Origin: a bacterium ADurb.Bin236
Lineage (GTDB): Bacteria; UBP15; UBA6099
Assembly: GCA_002069885.1 (NCBI GenBank)
Contig: MWCD01000030.1
Location: 1-47,407, forward strand
Length of the DNA stretch: 47,407 nucleotides
Direction of reading: 5' to 3'
Below are positions 11,661-36,979 of this stretch, piece by piece. The notes below the pieces were generated by a model. It ran no database searches, was not told the DNA's origin, and saw only the letters and a list, made by a program, of their open reading frames with translations. A program made the position numbers and the translations under genes. Every line of letters begins with the position of its first letter. Position 1 is the first letter of the stretch.

Positions 11661-11739
11661 CCCCACGCCACGCCGCAGCCGCCCAGACCGCCGCGAGCAA
11701 GCACGTGACCGCAACCTTTTTTATCTTGTTGCTTTTCAT
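11641..11739 (-). pseudogene. Truncated third copy of the P-family membrane protein
   Basis: From ATG 11739 (SD AAAGGAAGAA), 24 codons read MKSNKIKKVAVTCLLAAVWA and on to AAAW. This almost matches the N-termini of the two intact paralogues immediately upstream. Coding similarity then stops and the frame runs for eight codons into repeat B5, ending at TGA 11641. It is therefore the remnant of a third tandem copy cut off at the repeat boundary. The remaining peptide is essentially one membrane helix. Confidence 0.75.
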
Positions 11740-11750
11740 TTCTTCCTTTA

Positions 11751-12428
11751 TCAACGATGCGTTCCCGTTTGCGCCATTATGCTTTCCCGCCATTCCCTTA
11801 TTCCGCTTCTAACTTTATTTAAATCTTTATCGTTAAACGAAAGGCACTCCTCCATCCTTCGCCCATCCGCATATTGAATCTCATACCATTCGCAAAACCT
11901 GAAGCTCAGAGGCTCATGTCTGATATTCTCAAGCGCAAGAATTAGCGTATTCGCGCAGAATGGTTCTGTTTTTTCATCCAGAACCGCGTCAACAATCATC
12001 GACACATAAGGGCCCTTATCAAGCGAATAACGCTTGCTCAGACTCCAAAGAGCGTCAAAAGAACTGCATGCGGCAATAAATGTAAGCGCATCATCATTTA
12101 GCTCATAGGTTTCTTCTTTCGTCATATCTTTCATTTTTTTATATGAAACAATTGAACCGCCCCCCGATTGTTGATTCGACTGTTTTTCCACTTTTTCCAA
12201 CACGCCGAAATCATTGTCGCATTTTGCTATGCCTTTGATTGCGTATCTTGTTGTCCACCTCGGACCTAAATCAGAAATGACAATTGAACTCGCGGCTCGG
12301 ATATAACCCTTTGGCATTCTTGTCATGCCAATCACGCCGATTATGATGAACGTCTGCCACGCCGCCGCCGCCCAGACCGCCGAAAGCAAGAAAGCGACCA
12401 TAGCCTTTTTTGTCTTTTTGCTTTTCAT
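11751..12428 (-). CDS. P-family membrane-anchored protein, copy P2
   Basis: 225 residues from ATG 12428, chosen because the paralogues also start M-x-x-K-K-x-K-K; a TTG at 12443 with a better-spaced AAGGAAG is possible. A basic N-terminus precedes one transmembrane helix (FLLSAVWAAAAWQTFIIIGV), which places the rest outside the cytoplasm or anchored to the membrane. Family landmarks are SSIVISDLGPRWTTRYAI, YVSMIVDAVLDEKTEP and a Cys/Trp-containing CEWYEI. No known domain is recognised. It follows P1 with a TTGA-type overlap and precedes a truncated third copy. Tandem membrane paralogues after a cargo protein are common for immunity proteins, but that role is only inferred. Confidence 0.75.
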   Translation of the reverse strand: MKSKKTKKAMVAFLLSAVWAAAAWQTFIIIGVIGMTRMPKGYIRAASSIVISDLGPRWTTRYAIKGIAKCDNDFGVLEKVEKQSNQQSGGGSIVSYKKMKDMTKEETYELNDDALTFIAACSSFDALWSLSKRYSLDKGPYVSMIVDAVLDEKTEPFCANTLILALENIRHEPLSFRFCEWYEIQYADGRRMEECLSFNDKDLNKVRSGIREWRESIMAQTGTHR

Positions 12429-12439
12429 TCCCTTTGCTC

Positions 12440-12985
12440 TCAACGAGGCGCTTCCTTTTTCGGTCGCTTATGTTCACTCCATTCCCTAACTGAATCAAAA
12501 AGCCCTTTCGCTTCCTCATCGTCCCTTGTCATACATTTATAAGCGCTGCATTGCTCGCATTCTGCCTTCGGGAGCCAGTAGCACAAACCGTCCGGGTCGA
12601 AAGATGTCCCGGCAAAATCGTTTAGCTTGAATATAAAAAAACGCGCGTTGAATATCGGCGTTTTCTCATTGAGTATCAAAGCCACCATCATGTTGATATA
12701 TCTCTCTTCATTCAGCGAACGTCTTTTGTGTAAATCGTCGACCGCGATAAATGCCTCGCAATCCGAAGGCGCACAATAAGAGCTGGCGATGATGGCATGC
12801 TTTACAGTCCATCTAGGCCCATATTTTCCGACTATGGCCGATCCAATTTCCCGCGCCCCAATAACGCTTTTAGGATGCCTCATGCCAATCACGCCGATTA
12901 TGATGAACGTCTGCCACGCCGCCGCCGCCCAGACCGCCACAAGCAAGCCCGTGACCGCAACCTTTTTTATTTTCTTAGCATCCAT
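12440..12985 (-). CDS. P-family membrane-anchored protein, copy P1
   Basis: 181 residues from ATG 12985, preceded by GGAGGAG; an upstream ATG at 12997 lacks an SD. A basic MDAKKIKK leader is followed by a transmembrane helix nearly identical to P2 (LLVAVWAAAAWQTFIIIGVI). The soluble part has GPRWTVKHAI, INMMVALILNEKTPIF and a GTSF..DGLCYW segment, plus several cysteines (CEQCSAYKC). It shares this core with P2 and with the distant copy at 34358-34945. Two-gene overlap with P2 indicates one operon. Function unknown. Confidence 0.75.
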   Translation of the reverse strand: MDAKKIKKVAVTGLLVAVWAAAAWQTFIIIGVIGMRHPKSVIGAREIGSAIVGKYGPRWTVKHAIIASSYCAPSDCEAFIAVDDLHKRRSLNEERYINMMVALILNEKTPIFNARFFIFKLNDFAGTSFDPDGLCYWLPKAECEQCSAYKCMTRDDEEAKGLFDSVREWSEHKRPKKEAPR

Positions 12986-13022
12986 CTGCTCCTCCATGTC
13001 GAAACACAGACAAAACTAAAAC

Positions 13023-13055
13023 AAGGGCGCGCCCCTTTAGAGGCCCGCCCTTTTT
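13023..13055. terminator. Hairpin between the Q-domain frame and the P1 gene
   Basis: AAGGGCGcGCC / GGcCCGCCCTT stem with T runs on both sides, so it could act on either strand. It would separate the Q-domain frame from P1/P2 or attenuate transcription into them. Confidence 0.5.
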
Positions 13056-13095
13056 CTCCAATCAAACAAGCCATGATAACCTCGACAAATAATCT

Positions 13096-13380
13096 TCATG
13101 GCGTCCAACCGAGCTGTCTCGCTGTAACCGGATCCACGTAAGACGCTCCAAATGCATTTACACAAAGAATGTCATTGCTAATCGTTATGCTTGCAAAACG
13201 TGATGAATCTAATATCTTAATTGCCCCCGCCGCGACTATCTTGCCAGTACCGGGCGCAAAAAACTTCTGACCGGGCAGTATTATCACTGCATCTGCGTCT
13301 TGCAGATAATTAGTGGACTTCTCTCCCGGATACAAATATACCTTGTCTGGAGATCCGTTATAATCATTCCCCTTTATCAA
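13096..13380 (-). CDS. Q-domain frame, probably C-terminal part of a frameshifted fusion
   Basis: Conventional start TTG 13380 has only a poor SD; the open frame continues upstream to about 13430. The 94 residues (VYLYPGEKS, then DADAVIILPGQKF) match the last 85 residues of the protease/scaffold protein (MYLASGGNS, then DADGIVIIAGQRF). Similarity extends upstream of the TTG (AFGTIVNH here, LFGSVKKH there), which places the true domain boundary before this start and overlapping the stop of the 158-aa gene. Joining the two needs a -1 shift on the A6 run at 13428-13433. The fold is probably beta-rich; function unknown. P-family genes follow. Confidence 0.6.
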   Translation of the reverse strand: MIKGNDYNGSPDKVYLYPGEKSTNYLQDADAVIILPGQKFFAPGTGKIVAAGAIKILDSSRFASITISNDILCVNAFGASYVDPVTARQLGWTP

Positions 13381-13418
13381 TACTCTTACTGGACTATGAT
13401 TGACGATAGTCCCAAACG

Positions 13419-13895
13419 CTATGCCAGTTTTTTGAAAATAACATCCTTTATGGCATCCTTCGCTGATTTAGTTGTATTCTTCACGCCTCGTTCCGCCCGC
13501 TCTGCAATATCTTTAAGAAAGTCTTTGGCCTTCGAGAGTTTCGCGTAGTCCGATTCAACAGACGCGCCGTCTCCGGCTTTCTTTGTTTCGAGCGCAACTA
13601 GCAAGCCCGCGGCGGTTGCCGCCCTTACGCTGATATTTCCGAGTATGTTCCCCGCTTCAATTATACTATTTCCCTCCGGGGAGAGGTCAAGCAACTCCGC
13701 GACTCCGTTGTTGCTTTCGGTCATCTCTTCGTCGGCCCGTCTCCTTTTGTCCGCCTCCATCGCTCCCCGCGCGTATCCGTCCGCGTCCTCGAAGTCCGCC
13801 CCAAGCTCCGCGCAGCATTTCATCGTCTCCAGTTCCATCTCGATTTCCCTAATCGCCGCTTCCGCCTTCACTGCCGCCTTTAGGATCGTTCCCAT
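13419..13895 (-). CDS. 158-aa helical phage-cluster protein
   Basis: Start ATG 13895 with GAAAGGGGAA upstream. It is mostly helical and charged: AAVKAEAAIREIEMELETMK at the N-terminus, a hydrophobic AATAAGLLVAL patch near 93-103, and an amphipathic C-terminus AKDAIKDVIFKKLA. No family recognised. It lies downstream of the holin gene. Its last codons overlap an open -1 frame that encodes the Q domain, so the full product may be a roughly 260-residue fusion. It could be a cargo protein loaded with or released by the particle; that is speculation. Confidence 0.6.
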   Translation of the reverse strand: MGTILKAAVKAEAAIREIEMELETMKCCAELGADFEDADGYARGAMEADKRRRADEEMTESNNGVAELLDLSPEGNSIIEAGNILGNISVRAATAAGLLVALETKKAGDGASVESDYAKLSKAKDFLKDIAERAERGVKNTTKSAKDAIKDVIFKKLA

Positions 13896-25194: not shown

Positions 25195-25920
25195 TTACTT
25201 CCCGGCGCGCATCGCTTTTATTCGCTCTTCGATGTCAGGCGGAGCCGGAGAATTCGTTAGCAGGCACGTCCGCGCTTCGTCATCCCGGCATCCGACGACA
25301 ACATAGTCTTTTTGACTTCGCCCCTCGGCGAAATCCCGCGCGCATTCTTCGTCCGTCTTCCCTCCGCACTTCTCGAGCGCTAAATAAACCGAGTCCGGCC
25401 TGCCTTTTTTCGCCCTCTTCGCCACCGCGCTTAAAGACACATAATACGCGTATCCGACTCGCAACCCTTGCGTCTTCACTCTCTCTCTATAACACTCAGG
25501 AGTCTGTCCAAACACAATCCTTGCCGCGATTTTTTGCTGATACATCGTGTCAACACAATCCTTCAGCCCCGCTTCTCTCAACTCGTCAAGCTCGAGGCTC
25601 TCAATTTCCCAATGACCGTCCGCTCCGTTTTCTTCGTAATTGAATACACTAATAGAGCCGACCCTTTTAGGAGAGGTCTCGAATTTCATGTCATCGGACA
25701 GATAGATTATTATATTCTCTCCGTCAAACCCCGCCGCCGCGTAATTCTCCCTATCTGTCTTCACACCCATTGGCGGACCAGCCAGACACTCCATTATTAT
25801 CATCAGCGCGAATATGACTGGTTGATACAACAAAACAAATAGCGCGACCACCGCCGTGGCAATGATTCCTTTCCATGTCGGACTTGCTTCTTTATACCTG
25901 TTATACATATCAATTATCAC
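25195..25920 (-). CDS. Membrane-anchored cargo protein, partner of the HExxH gene
   Basis: 241 residues from GTG 25920 (ATG 25908 is an alternative). After a short basic N-terminus there is a strong transmembrane segment (IIATAVVALFVLLYQPVIFA, extended to MIIMECLAG). The rest is soluble and mixed alpha/beta with several cysteines (LKDCVDTM, TPECYRE, LEKCGGKTDEEC, VVGCRDDEART). The protein is probably periplasmic or membrane-attached. It follows the HExxH gene by 31 bp, so both are likely co-transcribed. No family recognised. An immunity or anchoring role is inferred only from order. Confidence 0.65.
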   Translation of the reverse strand: MIIDMYNRYKEASPTWKGIIATAVVALFVLLYQPVIFALMIIMECLAGPPMGVKTDRENYAAAGFDGENIIIYLSDDMKFETSPKRVGSISVFNYEENGADGHWEIESLELDELREAGLKDCVDTMYQQKIAARIVFGQTPECYRERVKTQGLRVGYAYYVSLSAVAKRAKKGRPDSVYLALEKCGGKTDEECARDFAEGRSQKDYVVVGCRDDEARTCLLTNSPAPPDIEERIKAMRAGK

Positions 25921-25951: not shown

Positions 25952-26584
25952 TCAGTATCTCAACCAACGGCGTAATAATACATCTTTTCTTGCCTTTCCA
26001 TCGCCCTCATACATTTCCTTCGTCGGCAATCTTTTGTTTTCCATTATCCAATCCGCCTGAGCTTCCGGTGGCCAGATGTCCCACGGTATGCTTTTGCTTA
26101 TCAGATGTTTGTACGCATAAGGATCATAACTCAACCCGCCGGGCAATACGTCTGTCATCGTCTTTATGCAATGCTGACGTAATGCCCTTGTCGCATATCT
26201 AAACCCCATTCTGTTATTATACTGCCACACATGCGCCGCCTCATGAATCAAAACATCTTTGTTTACTTGACCGTCTTCTTCAATATCTCCCTCTACAACA
26301 CAAATTCTGTTGCCTACTCCCCTGCTGTAACCCAATATTGTGAAAACGCCTCCGATATGTACCCTTATTTTACCGTAATCCAACTCATTTCCAAACACAC
26401 TCACAAGTATCCTTTTCTCGTTGTCCGTCAAACCTCTTATTCGTCCTGTAATTCCTCCGACATCCGCCCCTTCAAATATATACTCTTGCAAAGCCAACTC
26501 GCTCTCGCTCAGCCCAAAATAGCGCCCGCCACACTCATGCAACTCCGTTGTGGAACATGTCTTTCTATCTTTTTTCTTCGTCAT
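25952..26584 (-). CDS. HExxH protein resembling Vgr-related/DUF4157-like metallopeptidases
   Basis: 210 residues from ATG 26584. The zinc-site motif is VLIHEAAHVWQYNN (His114, Glu115, His118), followed by GFRYATRALRQ, DPYAYKHLI and PEAQADWI. This combination of HExxHvWQ, a Y-x-Y segment and a later E-x-Q-A helix resembles Vgr-related proteins encoded beside type VI/contractile effectors. Two N-terminal cysteine pairs (TCSTTELHECGG) are of unknown use. There is no signal peptide. It sits in an AT-rich islet between neck and tail-tube genes, directly upstream of a membrane protein, which suggests cargo rather than virion structure. Activity unproven. Confidence 0.65.
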   Translation of the reverse strand: MTKKKDRKTCSTTELHECGGRYFGLSESELALQEYIFEGADVGGITGRIRGLTDNEKRILVSVFGNELDYGKIRVHIGGVFTILGYSRGVGNRICVVEGDIEEDGQVNKDVLIHEAAHVWQYNNRMGFRYATRALRQHCIKTMTDVLPGGLSYDPYAYKHLISKSIPWDIWPPEAQADWIMENKRLPTKEMYEGDGKARKDVLLRRWLRY

Positions 26585-26915: not shown

Positions 26916-26925
26916 TTAAGGCGAG
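26836..26925. repeat. Repeat R, copy R2
   Basis: Second copy of the repeat described at 25100-25172, containing CAGGCAATACTACA, then TTCGGCTGTGTC and TTTT. It runs into the stop of the 26916-27152 gene. Confidence 0.45.
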
Positions 26926-27152
26926 TTGAGTTTTTGCCTAATTTCAATCATCAGTTGAATTATTAAAACCACCACGCCGAAAAAAACGTAAACAAACCAT
27001 AAGAAAAACATGTATACCCATAAACCATACGCGAAATCGCCATTAAAAGGCGGGACATAAACTACTAATATAAGCGCCAAAACCACGATCAATGAATAGA
27101 CTAGACCAAGCTTTGCCCACTTGTTCAGCAACTTTCTGAGATCTGCTTTCAT
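26916..27152 (-). CDS. Small two-helix membrane protein
   Basis: 78 residues: basic N-terminus (KADLRKLLNKWAK), helix 1 (LVYSLIVVLALILVVYVPPF), a short loop, helix 2 (VYMFFLWFVYVFFGVVVLII) and a basic end. GAGAGGCG is 3 bp before the ATG, just after the upstream gene's stop. It is the distal gene of a two-gene unit with the Trp/Tyr-rich protein. Two-helix proteins of this size occur as immunity proteins, holins or small anchors. Nothing in the sequence decides between them. Confidence 0.65.
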   Translation of the reverse strand: MKADLRKLLNKWAKLGLVYSLIVVLALILVVYVPPFNGDFAYGLWVYMFFLWFVYVFFGVVVLIIQLMIEIRQKLNSP

Positions 27153-27161
27153 AAACGCCTC

Positions 27162-27722
27162 TCACCATGGTGTTTGCGGAGCCGGTGTGCCGATGAGAAA
27201 TGAATCTAGAATTATATGTCCTCCCCCTATGACTGGTACTGTCACAAAATTTTCAACATACCAAATGCGCTCTTCCGGGGGGCCGATATATTTGTATCGT
27301 TTCGTTGCTTCTTGTGCCCACTTATGTGTGGCTTGTTCCCAATCAAAACATACAAAACCCCTTCTGCCGCGTGAAGCATAGAACTTTGCCGCTTCAATAG
27401 CTGGCATTGGAGATGTATGATGATAATATGCATGCCATCTTACCCATTTAGCATATTCTTCTTTGAATTGCCTAATCTCTCGTGACACATCTGGACGAGG
27501 CTTATACCTTCTCTCGCCCTTGTTCCTATCCATTTCAAGCCGATTATAATAATCAGGTCTTCTTACATCATTTGGTCTAGGTTTCCAATGAGTAGCGTCT
27601 AATGGTAGAGCCGCCGTTTCGTTATAAAAGTATTCCCCATTCTCTGGATTCGCGCATTTCGCGGTGGAGATGTCAGGACCGCAAACGATGTATTCTCTGA
27701 ATCGGTTTTTCATCTCTCCCAT
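27162..27722 (-). CDS. Trp/Tyr-rich protein of unknown function (possible effector)
   Basis: 186 residues, no signal peptide or membrane helix. It is unusually rich in Trp, Tyr, Arg and Pro: THWKPRPNDVRRPDYYNRLE, KWVRWHAYYHHTSPMPAIEA, FDWEQATHKWAQEATKRYKY. The C-terminus is hydrophobic and beta-like (VPVIGGGHIILDSFLIG). No known domain is recognised. The gene is AT-rich relative to the virion genes, starts the cargo islet, and is followed after 9 bp by a two-helix membrane protein. A toxin/immunity reading is possible but unproven. Confidence 0.6.
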   Translation of the reverse strand: MGEMKNRFREYIVCGPDISTAKCANPENGEYFYNETAALPLDATHWKPRPNDVRRPDYYNRLEMDRNKGERRYKPRPDVSREIRQFKEEYAKWVRWHAYYHHTSPMPAIEAAKFYASRGRRGFVCFDWEQATHKWAQEATKRYKYIGPPEERIWYVENFVTVPVIGGGHIILDSFLIGTPAPQTPW

Positions 27723-32593: not shown

Positions 32594-32833
32594 CTCTCTT
32601 TCACCTCCCCTTTTTATCGCCCCCTCGCCGGAGGCGTTTGTCTCTCGCATTCCGTTTCCTCTATTGCCATTTCGCCACTTGCGCGCTATCATTAATGCCG
32701 AATCTGCCGCGAAATTCAGGCGGATGTTCAGCGCCGCGCGGAATGCCGCCCTCATTTATCGCGGCAAGTTAGCGAATGGTGTTTTTGTTAATAAATAAAA
32801 GCTGTTTTGTTTTTCAGAAAAGAGGATTGTGTT

Positions 32834-33664
32834 ATGGAAGACCTTAAAGAAATGTTAATCAAACCGGAATTTCCCCGCTCGGCGAGTTACGATCCCGACT
32901 GGCAGCTAAGCAACCAGATGGGGCCGAACGCGCTGTGGCTTTGTGAATGGCTGTGCGAGGCGATGGAACTAAAGCCCGGAATGAGGGTTCTCGATTTGGG
33001 TTGCGGAAAAGCGATGACAAGCATATTTCTTGCGCGCGAGTTCGGCGTCCGCGTGTGGGCGGCGGACCTGTGGATGAGCCAAGACAACAACTGGAAACGC
33101 GTCAAGGAAGCCGGCGCTCAGGACTCGGTCTGCCCGCTCCGCATGGAAGCCCACGCGCTTCCGTTCGCCTCAGGGTTCTTCGACGCCGTCATCTCGATAG
33201 ACGCCTATCATTATTTCGGCACGGACGAACACTACATTGACTACATCGGCCAGTTCGTTCGGGAGGGCGGCCAGTTCGGCGTCGTCGTGCCCGGCCTCGC
33301 GCGCGAGTTCGAGAACGGAATCGTCCCGGCCCATCTTGCCGAACCGCAATCAAACGGAAAAGCTTTCTGGGAGCCTGCCTGCCGAAGCTTCAAGACCGCC
33401 GGGTTCTGGAACGCGCTTTGGAAAGGCTCTGCGTCGGTTCAAGATGTCAAAGTCGATCTTCAACCCGACGGCTGGCGGCTCTGGATGGAATTCGAGCGCG
33501 CCATCGAAAAGTCGGGAAAAGGCATATTTCCGTCCGACGCCGAAGCGATTGAAAAAGACGCCGGGCAATACATCGCTTTCATCAGAGCCACCGCCCGCCG
33601 CTCAGCCCTGTCAGAAATGAACCTGTACGACCCGACGCTCGGCCTCCAATGCGGCGCTGAATAG
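32834..33664 (+). CDS. Class I SAM-dependent methyltransferase, opposite to the phage genes
   Basis: 276 residues from ATG 32834 (AGAGGA upstream). SAM-binding motif I is VLDLGCGKAMTS (about 52-63), motif II is VWAADLWM, and the post-motif is ALPFASGFFDAVISIDAYHY. The N-terminal SNQMGPNALWLCEWLCEAM region resembles small-molecule/lipid methyltransferases found in Gram-positives and archaea. The substrate is unknown. It is the only plus-strand gene within the phage cluster and is followed 29 bp later by repeat A4. Those facts mark it as a separate insertion or moron. Confidence 0.8.
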   Translation: MEDLKEMLIKPEFPRSASYDPDWQLSNQMGPNALWLCEWLCEAMELKPGMRVLDLGCGKAMTSIFLAREFGVRVWAADLWMSQDNNWKRVKEAGAQDSVCPLRMEAHALPFASGFFDAVISIDAYHYFGTDEHYIDYIGQFVREGGQFGVVVPGLAREFENGIVPAHLAEPQSNGKAFWEPACRSFKTAGFWNALWKGSASVQDVKVDLQPDGWRLWMEFERAIEKSGKGIFPSDAEAIEKDAGQYIAFIRATARRSALSEMNLYDPTLGLQCGAE

Positions 33665-33851: not shown

Positions 33852-34361
33852 TCAAAAGCGCGCGGCTCGGAACAATCCCGCTGCGACGGCTCCTCCCAAA
33901 CGAGACGAGACCCAAATCATCAGCGCCGGCATGATTCCGACGGCAAGAAGAATTCCGGGCAGATAGTTGATAGGATTATTGCCTCCTAAAAGCGGAACTC
34001 GCAACAATGGCGAAAACGCGAGCGTGGCAAATCCGAACAGAAAAGCAGATGGAGAAGCTATGACAACCGAGAGAATAGCGCCCGGCAGATAGCCCGCCGC
34101 GCCGTTCTGATTTTTTCGCGCCGCAGAGATGAAAGCGCGCGTCGTCAATATCCCGATCGCCGCTCCGGCTAGCAGGGTCAACGGCGGCCCCGCAAGCAGC
34201 ATGGCCGCTCCTTCAGCGGTCAAACGCATCGCCCCGTGTCTCCACATTAGAAACTCCGTCCACCAGCCCGTCGCCAACGCGCCGTACGGAAAAAACGCAA
34301 TCGCCACTGCCAAAACTACGAAAGTCCTTTTTCTGCCTTTATCCCGTTTGACATCCGTCAT
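33852..34361 (-). CDS. Four-helix membrane protein
   Basis: 169 residues from ATG 34361 with AAGGAA upstream. A basic cytoplasmic start (TDVKRDKGRKR) leads to about four hydrophobic helices, including VVLAVAIAFFPYGALATGWW, LLAGPPLTLLAGAAIGIL and LPGILLAVGIMPALMIWVS. No domain recognised. ATGA overlap with the P3 gene indicates an operon. Confidence 0.65.
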   Translation of the reverse strand: MTDVKRDKGRKRTFVVLAVAIAFFPYGALATGWWTEFLMWRHGAMRLTAEGAAMLLAGPPLTLLAGAAIGILTTRAFISAARKNQNGAAGYLPGAILSVVIASPSAFLFGFATLAFSPLLRVPLLGGNNPINYLPGILLAVGIMPALMIWVSSRLGGAVAAGLFRAARF

Positions 34362-34945
34362 GGCGCGTTCCTTTCGACAGCGTCCGGAAGCGTTCCGCTC
34401 CGTTCCCACCATTTACTAACTTTTTTCATCACGCATTCGTTGAAGTAATACGAGTCCGGACGTTGTGACGCGCCATACTCAACCATGTCCGCTCCGCCTC
34501 CAAGTTCTTCTCCCGGCTCGCAGACCCAACCGATCAACTCGCCGGCATCGGAGTGCTTCGCCGCACAGCAACTAAAACTCGTCCCTACAGCCGCAGAAAG
34601 GGCGTTCGCAAGATGCGTCCTGCTCATTTCTCCTGTTTCCTCCGACAGAATGCCCTCTATTATCATAGAAATACGAGGCTCGTCGCTCAGAGGAAATCGT
34701 TCGCTCATCCGAAGCAGATTCCCGGTTAAGTCATATTGAGCGTCTCTGTAATCGCGAACCGAGCGAATCATTCTTTCGGCGTCCTTATGTCCGCCGAATG
34801 CTCTTATGATTGTCGCGGGGACGCGCCCCATTCGTCCTTCTGACGCGTCTATGACGAGAAATGATGACGCCACGAGAAGCTTCAACGAAATAAGCGTCGC
34901 CACCGGCAATCCCGCAAGAAGAAAAAGGACCTCGCTCCGCCTCAT
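34358..34945 (-). CDS. P-family membrane-anchored protein, copy P3
   Basis: 195 residues from ATG 34945 (GGAGAAAAG upstream; ATG 34972 is an alternative). A basic start and one transmembrane helix (LFLLAGLPVATLISLKLLVA) precede a soluble domain. Its ISMIIEGILSEETGEMS matches VSMIVDAVLDEKTEPFC in P2 and INMMVALILNEKTPIFN in P1. A later GTSF..C segment and WVCEPGEE correspond to the C/W part of P1 and P2. It follows the Q domain of the protease/scaffold gene by 54 bp, the same Q-to-P order seen at 12.4-13.4 kb. Confidence 0.7.
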   Translation of the reverse strand: MRRSEVLFLLAGLPVATLISLKLLVASSFLVIDASEGRMGRVPATIIRAFGGHKDAERMIRSVRDYRDAQYDLTGNLLRMSERFPLSDEPRISMIIEGILSEETGEMSRTHLANALSAAVGTSFSCCAAKHSDAGELIGWVCEPGEELGGGADMVEYGASQRPDSYYFNECVMKKVSKWWERSGTLPDAVERNAP

Positions 34946-34999
34946 AGCTTCTTTTCTCCATTTCAACCACATTTTCTTGATGCCGCAAAGCTATAATGT

Positions 35000-36979
35000 T
35001 CACATCGGCCAACCCCAAGAAAGCGCTGCGGCTCTGCTGTGCCAGCTTATGGCCGGGCCCCAAACCCTTATTATGCCTGAACGGTCATTTGTCACATTAA
35101 CCCTTAAAGGAAATCCGGCTGTTTTTATGACGCCTGAAGAATAAACCTCTTTGTGATTATTTATTGCGAACCTTTGTCCCGCAATTATTACAATTCCATC
35201 TGCGTCAAATAAATAATCGATTGAATTTCCTCCACTCGCTAAATACATTTGAACCATTCTTTCGCTTCCTTTTTTATTGCCCACCACACACAAAGCTTCG
35301 CCGCTTTCATTTTGAATAATACGCCTGCTCAGGTGTTTTTTCACACTTCCAAACAACCCATATTCAGCAAGGCGATTATCCTTTTGGGTTTTATTATACT
35401 GAGTTTGCATATTGTCACAAGGATACGATCCGGAATAATTGTTGCTCTCGCGCAACCGGCCATTGTCGCCGTCGAAGTCCGATGACGGGGGCCGAACATA
35501 TTCCAGCGCGGCGAGGGCGGCGCGGGAGTAGTCGGACGCGTCGTCGTAGTCCAGCCCGCGCGCGGCGCAGTAGCTTTTTATCAGCTCTTCAGAGTCGTCC
35601 CCCGCCCCGCCGGCCTCGCCGCCGCCGCTGACGCCTTCTCTCCCGTACTCGCTCATCGCGGGATGTTCGCTGAGAGCGGACACAAATCCTCTGAACCCTG
35701 CCGCAAGCCCGGACTCGTCTCCGGCCGCTCTCGCGTAGTCCGACGCCGCCGACGCGTCTCCGTCCAGTATCGCCAAAAGGTCTATCACGAGGCCCCTGAA
35801 CGCGGGCGGAATTCTGCCCGCGTTGCGGGACACGAACTGGCGGCGGGCGCGCTCGCGAGCCGCGGCCTCCCGCATCCTTTGCTCGTCGAGGCGTTCGCGG
35901 GCCTCGCGAAGTTTCTCAAGAGCCTCGTCCAGCGCCGCCGACATCTCTTCCGAGGCGGCCCCGGCTTCCTGTGAATTTTCTTCCTCTGGGACGGCGATTT
36001 CGTCCTCGTTCGCAATGTCTTCCGAAGGCTCCGATTCCGTTTCGTAAGCCGCCTGCGCGCCGTCCGCCGCAAGTCCCTCTTGCGCCTCGTCTCCGCCCCC
36101 ATCCTCCGCCGCGTTCGGTTCCGGCTCGGTTGCGCCGCTTGCCTCCTCCTGTCCGGGTGAAACCTCTTTAGAAGCGTCGGCGACATCGCCGGCAACTTCA
36201 AGCTCCTCCGCGTCCGCATTGTCAAGGCCGGTCCCGTCTTCGCTTGCGGTTTCCTCGCGGCTCTCTGCTTCAGGGCCTTCGTCCAGCTCCGCATCCTGTT
36301 TTTCGGCAATGATAAGAAGCTCTTCAAGTTCCGCTATCCGCGCTTTGAGCGCCGCAATTTTTTCAATCATATCATTTGCGGTCATTTCGTCCTCCGGATT
36401 ATCGGCGTCGGTCGGTTCGGACGCCACATCCGAGCCGCCGTCATCGAGGATGCCCGCCGGGCCGGATTCGTAAAGGTAAGCCGCGCCGCCGCCTGAAGTT
36501 CCGTAGAGCGCGCCGATATCCGCCAGCGAGCCGATGGCGGGCAGCGCGGCCCCGAGCAGGGCCAGCCCGGTGGCCACGTGCTTGTGCGTCGCGCCTGTCG
36601 CTTCGTCTCGGTATCCGTGCAACACTTCTAGGCTGCGCTTGCGATAAGCTCCCGCCCGTATCAGGTCATAAACTTTTGCGGGCACGCCTACAAGGTCGGC
36701 CAACAGCCTCCCCCCCTGCGCGCGCACATTCCTCAGCCACCCTGCGGCAGGCAGCCCGTCCGCGCTCAACAGCCGTTGCTCCGGGTCGTGCCCCAGTTTC
36801 ACCGGCGGATCGAGCCTGCCTTCCAGCGCCCGGTGCGCCTCCGCCATCTCCTTCAAATCATCTTCCGTATATGCGACCGTCCTTCCCGCGCTGTCCGTCC
36901 ATGTTCCCGCCCGGAATATCTCCACATCCTTGATTTCAAAAGTTTCGGGCGTGCTTCTTTCCTCATTCAAGTTTTCCAT
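35000..36979 (-). CDS. Mu-I-like prohead protease/scaffold with C-terminal Q domain
   Basis: 659 residues, SD GGAGGAAAAAAAG. Residues 10-165 match phage prohead protease (Mu gpI-like): FRAGTWTDSAGRTVAYTEDD, DPPVKLGHDPEQ, AAGWLRNVRAQGG, AYRKRSLEVLHGY. An acidic linker (about 190-340) and a coiled-coil scaffold (EALEKLREARERLDEQRMRE, about 350-520) follow. The last 105 residues, AT-rich in DNA, are the Q domain, with an internal AAGGAA-ATG at 35257 that could also start an 85-residue Q protein. The base composition change near 35,470 and the Q match at 13.1 kb suggest a fusion. It is the first gene of the phage block; no portal or terminase precedes it. Confidence 0.8.
   Translation of the reverse strand: MENLNEERSTPETFEIKDVEIFRAGTWTDSAGRTVAYTEDDLKEMAEAHRALEGRLDPPVKLGHDPEQRLLSADGLPAAGWLRNVRAQGGRLLADLVGVPAKVYDLIRAGAYRKRSLEVLHGYRDEATGATHKHVATGLALLGAALPAIGSLADIGALYGTSGGGAAYLYESGPAGILDDGGSDVASEPTDADNPEDEMTANDMIEKIAALKARIAELEELLIIAEKQDAELDEGPEAESREETASEDGTGLDNADAEELEVAGDVADASKEVSPGQEEASGATEPEPNAAEDGGGDEAQEGLAADGAQAAYETESEPSEDIANEDEIAVPEEENSQEAGAASEEMSAALDEALEKLREARERLDEQRMREAAARERARRQFVSRNAGRIPPAFRGLVIDLLAILDGDASAASDYARAAGDESGLAAGFRGFVSALSEHPAMSEYGREGVSGGGEAGGAGDDSEELIKSYCAARGLDYDDASDYSRAALAALEYVRPPSSDFDGDNGRLRESNNYSGSYPCDNMQTQYNKTQKDNRLAEYGLFGSVKKHLSRRIIQNESGEALCVVGNKKGSERMVQMYLASGGNSIDYLFDADGIVIIAGQRFAINNHKEVYSSGVIKTAGFPLRVNVTNDRSGIIRVWGPAISWHSRAAALSWGWPM

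Follow-up and report, generated by a model that had tools for sequence, protein, structure and literature searches.

Exchangeable C-terminal tips on the capsid scaffold and a lysis-end protein of a phage-derived particle locus: a probable toxin/immunity system

Known carriers of polymorphic toxins are of the secreted, T6SS, Rhs/CdiA and MuF head types. MuF toxins belong to the head module of temperate phages; their C-terminal domain varies, and a small gene lies downstream (Jamet et al. 2017, PMC5576092). MuF is also listed among the delivery classes, with packaging into the phage head as the prediction (PMC3482391). A precedent for toxin/immunity modules that occur as orphans comes from Rhs/CdiA-type loci (Koskiniemi et al. 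2014, PMC3967940), and eCIS loci carry DUF4157/HExxH proteins (PMC8213781).

The locus analysed here has the anatomy of a polymorphic toxin/immunity locus, with a predicted effector role, on a carrier for which no record was found: a literature search, with most subscription papers outside it, returned no scaffold-mounted or GTA-borne polymorphic toxins. The window is the whole 47,407-nucleotide stretch of contig MWCD01000030.1 from bacterium ADurb.Bin236. The comparison set was the phylum's seven searchable genomes, all of them draft, with several contigs ending inside variable regions. The window's own genome (3.87 Mb) was searched entire with Q-left as the sole query.

An earlier note on this DNA had described a domain, Q, duplicated at both ends of the phage block, with minus-strand P-family genes next after each copy. 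Both observations were borne out. The two copies and their carriers are:

13096-13428, minus strand: Q-left, a C-terminal tip domain of ~106 aa, in the -1 frame relative to U1 here.
13419-13895, minus strand: U1, the left-tip carrier, with 158 aa before the frameshift; in G004 and G003 it is fused to Q.
13737-13853, minus strand: scaffold-tail motif in U1, CAELGADFEDADGYARGAMEA; profile E 1.3e-17, the sequence itself being a row of the query alignment.
35003-35329, minus strand: Q-right, a C-terminal tip domain formed by the final ~110 aa of ORF 35000-36979 (659 aa).
35000-36979, minus strand: head maturation protease/scaffold with Q-right; phrog_976 (E 1.1e-32) and phrog_3894 (E 4.5e-31).
35489-35605, minus strand: scaffold-tail motif, SYCAARGLDYDDASDYSRAALAALEY; swaps start 1 nt past the motif.

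Q-left and Q-right were 36% identical across 66 aa (z = 14.8 from 500 shuffles), and Q-left alone recovered Q-right from the whole genome as the sole significant match (E = 1.9e-5), indicating that the two are homologous. The earlier note was right that Q is a duplicated domain, but it missed that Q is the C-terminal tip of carrier proteins that share the scaffold-tail motif, and no free-standing gene. Q-left is without a good start of its own and is shifted to frame -1 relative to U1; in the remaining five loci, Q is in frame with a motif-bearing carrier. U1 and Q form a single 299-codon frame in the same-genus genome G004, where a run of seven A residues (A7) corresponds to A6 in the window, and U1 of G003 is fused in frame to a different Q. 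Because both relatives have the in-frame fusion, a mutation or an assembly variant at the window A6 is a simpler account than programmed -1 frameshifting. Codons 1-130 of U1 gave a dS of 0.07 between the window and G003; the left tips of the same pair were 43% identical with saturated dS. U1 adjoins an M15 endolysin gene. A terminator-like hairpin at 13023-13037 (minus strand) lies between Q-left and P1, so that P1 may be expressed independently of Q-left; such sites were no commoner than in shuffles.

The tail motif spans ~40 residues and was present in every Q carrier. A profile of the motif gave 11 strong hits (E 2e-16 or better) over seven genomes, all of them scaffolds or tip carriers; six of these 11 sequences were rows of the profile's own query alignment. 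Strong hits outside scaffolds were U1 in three genomes, the stand-alone carrier in G001:C44 and, in G006:C110, a separate gene. Carriers among the strong hits comprised four of Q type and one, in G006, with a different tip and then a membrane protein. Plain scaffolds (G001:C230, G006:C110) terminate a few residues past the motif, whose window version is YCAARGLDYDDASDYSRAALAALEY. The next match to the profile (E 0.002) was a gene next to the terminase of another G003 prophage (L084:2829-3536, G003:C11), where a second copy was seen by eye. A Pfam scan found no MuF domain (PF04233/PF06152) in the scaffold or U1.

The genes that follow the two tips are:

12440-12997, minus strand: P1, with one N-terminal membrane helix and a soluble domain; proposed immunity protein.
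11751-12443, minus strand: P2, a P paralogue; proposed leftover immunity gene.
11662-11748, minus strand: truncated P start with the membrane helix only; a recombination remnant and the fourth P.
34358-34972, minus strand: P3, proposed immunity protein for Q-right.
33852-34412, minus strand: M, a membrane protein with four hydrophobic segments, located after P3; travels with Q-right and P3.

The Q profile detected six Q tips across the seven genomes, and a P gene directly followed the tip in all six. By orthology these cases represent three independent settings: the left end, the right end, and G001:C44 (genus g2) beside a clpB-like gene. Thus, Q and P were not mostly apart in other genomes, and Q-less P genes sat where a tip had been swapped or had decayed. 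The latter comprise P2, the truncated starts, the second P of G004, which is cut, and the P genes of G003:C78, located after Q2, and G001:C351, located after the remnant of a broken carrier. The soluble parts of the P proteins were homologous with the hydrophobic N-terminus left out (P1-P2, z 16.5; P2-P3, z 7.4; P1-P3, z 5.2). The 5' ends of P1 and P2 were 88% identical in DNA, and the remainder was 31% identical in protein; the conserved 5' end is likely a recombination anchor. The P of G003 was closer to window P2 (z 39) than to P1, which suggests at the sequence level that P2 is a leftover partner. The single N-terminal membrane helix makes the envelope the likely site of P.

Comparison of the window with its relatives revealed exchange of whole cassettes. 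DNA identity between the window and G003 scaffolds ended at nt 1483, 1 nt past the last motif codon (nt 1482), and returned at the 5' end of P3. Relative to the window, G004 had Q-P3-M exchanged for Q2-lip1-lip2, in which Q2 is a tip unrelated to Q and its partners are two lipoprotein genes, lip1 and lip2. Q2 was associated with lip1-lip2 in 3/3 cases. Neither lip1, lip2 nor the G006 partner showed similarity to P. In G002, Q-P3-M was followed by an 83-bp scar derived from the 3' end of the downstream gene, and then by a carrier-less Q2, lip1 and lip2. In the window, a methyltransferase-like gene (32807-33664, plus strand) closes the right cassette array, and its 3' end is the scar of G002. 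Q2 is therefore an orphan in G002 and carrier-fused in G003 and G004, while G003 retains P3-M behind Q2 with no Q between. Downstream of the left tip in G003, a 137-bp remnant of the P1 5' end survives. Particle proteins outside the tips were mostly 85-98% identical between the window and its genus relatives (major capsid protein, 98%; lowest values, 76% for g27.8 and 75% for the G004 scaffold). The tip regions had 43-50% GC, and the adjoining head and lysis genes 60-66%. Q, Q2, P and lip1 were under purifying selection (dN/dS 0.13-0.45). The arrangement expected of polymorphic toxins was thus found: a conserved carrier with C-terminal domains exchanged at a fixed junction, a specific partner gene immediately after each type of tip, and orphan tips with surplus predicted immunity genes (Q2 in G002; P3-M in G003; the P of G001:C351).

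The block encodes a capsid (major head protein, phrog_1005, E 2.8e-64) and a tail tube (Phage_tube_2), together with a weak DUF2460 match; no contractile sheath was recognised in the locus. Neither a portal gene nor a terminase was recognised in the block. Other terminases were present on other contigs of the window's genome, and the terminase of another G003 prophage was missing from the other genomes. An MFS-like gene on the opposite strand lies upstream of the scaffold. The right flank of the particle genes was common to the window, G002 and G003; the left flank differed between the window and G003.

A second variable, AT-rich slot occupies 25.2-27.7 kb and holds two pairs of genes:

27162-27722, minus strand: variable protein of 186 aa with N-terminal REYIVCGPD.
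26916-27152, minus strand: small membrane protein partner, 78 aa, which follows it.
25952-26584, minus strand: HEAAH metallopeptidase-like protein, 210 aa; PF13699 eCIS_core match (E 0.007), weak and below the Pfam cut-off.
25195-25920, minus strand: 241-aa protein with a hydrophobic N-terminal stretch, which follows the HEAAH protein.

The equivalent slot of G004 held a 212-aa protein of unrelated sequence together with a different membrane protein. A motif, (D/E)YI..G(A/P)D, near residue 10 was common to the window, G004 and a truncated ORF of G003, and is too short for significance alone. The 241-aa protein was 100% identical over 214 aa to L085:3-644 (G003:C117), although most of its neighbours differed by several percent, which suggests, from sequence comparison, a recent transfer. 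Stand-alone HEAAH proteins without the N-terminal extension were also present (L104, L105 and L106, on G003:C143, G004:C319 and G004:C94, respectively); their chromosomal site was between CstA-like and acyltransferase-like genes.

Structure predictions were made for both families. The P model (mean pLDDT 73) had a long N-terminal helix and then a helical domain with a hairpin; the best Foldseek match had E 0.23, and Z in VIA-align did not exceed 5.9. In the U1-Q model, Q formed an all-beta domain with a C-terminal helix (block pLDDT 81-94). The search for the Q fold gave no significant match, and the helices of U1 dominated the U1-Q hit list. Two candidate assignments were not trusted. A pVHL fold appeared only in Foldseek rows with E about 0.3-0.8, with no PF01847 hit at Q; a ricin-B-like lectin matched the Q profile over 58 positions with E 0.0017. 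Tips did not match known toxin families in Pfam, NCBIfam, PHROGs or PADLOC, a result compatible with a new domain. P likewise matched no known family.

We consider it probable that the window carries an inherited phage-derived particle locus in which the scaffold and U1 bear swappable C-terminal effector tips and envelope-anchored partners protect the producer. The scaffold and the lysis-end protein U1 would then be carriers of exchangeable tips, each tip being encoded just upstream of the protective partner or partners. The tail motif would place the carrier inside or on the particle at assembly, and the tip would ride with the particle to a sibling or competitor and harm it at the envelope. 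P, via its membrane helix and soluble domain, would neutralise its own Q. The low GC of the tip regions, the purifying selection, and the second slot, with its HExxH protein and membrane partners and its different genes in G004, also favour this reading; the lack of a known toxin family among the tips, the lack of a significant fold match for the Q model and the out-of-frame left tip of the window weigh against it. The earlier note had proposed that Q and P function together as either toxin/immunity or cargo/anchor. The pairing itself stood, in 6/6 cases and three settings, and of the two functions toxin/immunity fits better, because unrelated tips, with envelope partners that are also unrelated, replace one another at a single nucleotide position, and orphans are left behind. 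Under cargo/anchor, Q would be a docking domain and P would tie the scaffold and U1 to the inner membrane, for particle assembly or a timed release, and no toxicity would be involved. The predicted Q structure (a small beta domain with no obvious active site in the model), the N-terminal membrane helix of P and the endolysin gene beside U1 are consistent with such a role. However, plain scaffolds lack Q, orphan tips and surplus P genes persist, and the replacement of Q at the same site by an unrelated Q2 with unrelated lipoproteins is unexpected for a structural tether; we regard this function as unlikely.

Neutral accretion, in which Q-P and Q2-lipoprotein cassettes are mobile morons at recombination-prone ends and have no particle function, seems less likely still. 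The fixed breakpoint, the purifying selection on tips and partners, and the in-frame position of the other five Q tips on a motif-bearing carrier all argue against it, in spite of the low GC of the cassettes, the repeated 5' ends and remnants of P, and the frameshifted left tip of the window. The tip might also be displayed on the particle for self-recognition or exclusion, with P in the kin envelope blocking or permitting uptake and the alleles marking kin without killing. The paired allelic diversity, the likely envelope location of P and the conserved right flank of the particle locus would suit this role. In tailed phages, however, the C-terminus of the scaffold is normally internal and is lost at maturation, the Q2 partners are lipoproteins unrelated to P, and the sister slot holds a metallopeptidase-like protein; of the explanations considered here, we give this one the least credence.

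Returning to exchangeable effector tips, a broader and more tentative proposal is that, in this candidate phylum, a headed and domesticated phage-like particle delivers proteins. The short scaffold-tail peptide would be a general capsid-loading tag for the swapping of unrelated effectors, the second slot would use its own N-terminal tag (EYIxxGAD), and each effector would have an envelope-bound antidote. This is possible, but we would not presume it. The swap point here is the tail of the capsid protease/scaffold, and the same tag recurs on proteins apart from the scaffold, so that the loading of effectors into the capsid could be tested directly. The P alignment was too divergent a query for the viral contigs. 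No relatives of Q, Q2 and P were found beyond the phylum among viral contigs, phage and plasmid records and genome contigs, in pattern-based scans that are blind to distant relatives, which makes the three candidates for new families of effectors and immunity proteins.

Among known systems, a GTA of the RcGTA type resembles this locus in its right flank conserved in three genomes, its weak DUF2460 match and the lack of a recognised terminase or portal in the block; however, the left flank of the window is not that of G003. The locus resembles eCIS in its phage-origin particle and in the second-slot HExxH protein with PF13699 similarity. It differs in having a capsid and Phage_tube_2 with no recognised sheath; the PF13699 match is below cut-off, and Q and P are unrelated to DUF4157. 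The likeness to MuF toxins lies in a head-module protein whose C-terminal domain varies and which is followed by a small gene, with packaging in the head and delivery as the proposed route. However, the carriers here are defined by the protease/scaffold tail motif and U1, have no MuF domain and are not directly downstream of a portal, and the window's tips and partners match no known family. In contrast to Rhs/CdiA loci, the carrier is a capsid-assembly protein with no Rhs or filamentous repeat. As in those loci, displaced start-less tips are found downstream of the main gene together with their partner genes, and a tip displaced in one genome can be the fused tip of a relative, as seen for Q2 in G002 versus G003 and G004.
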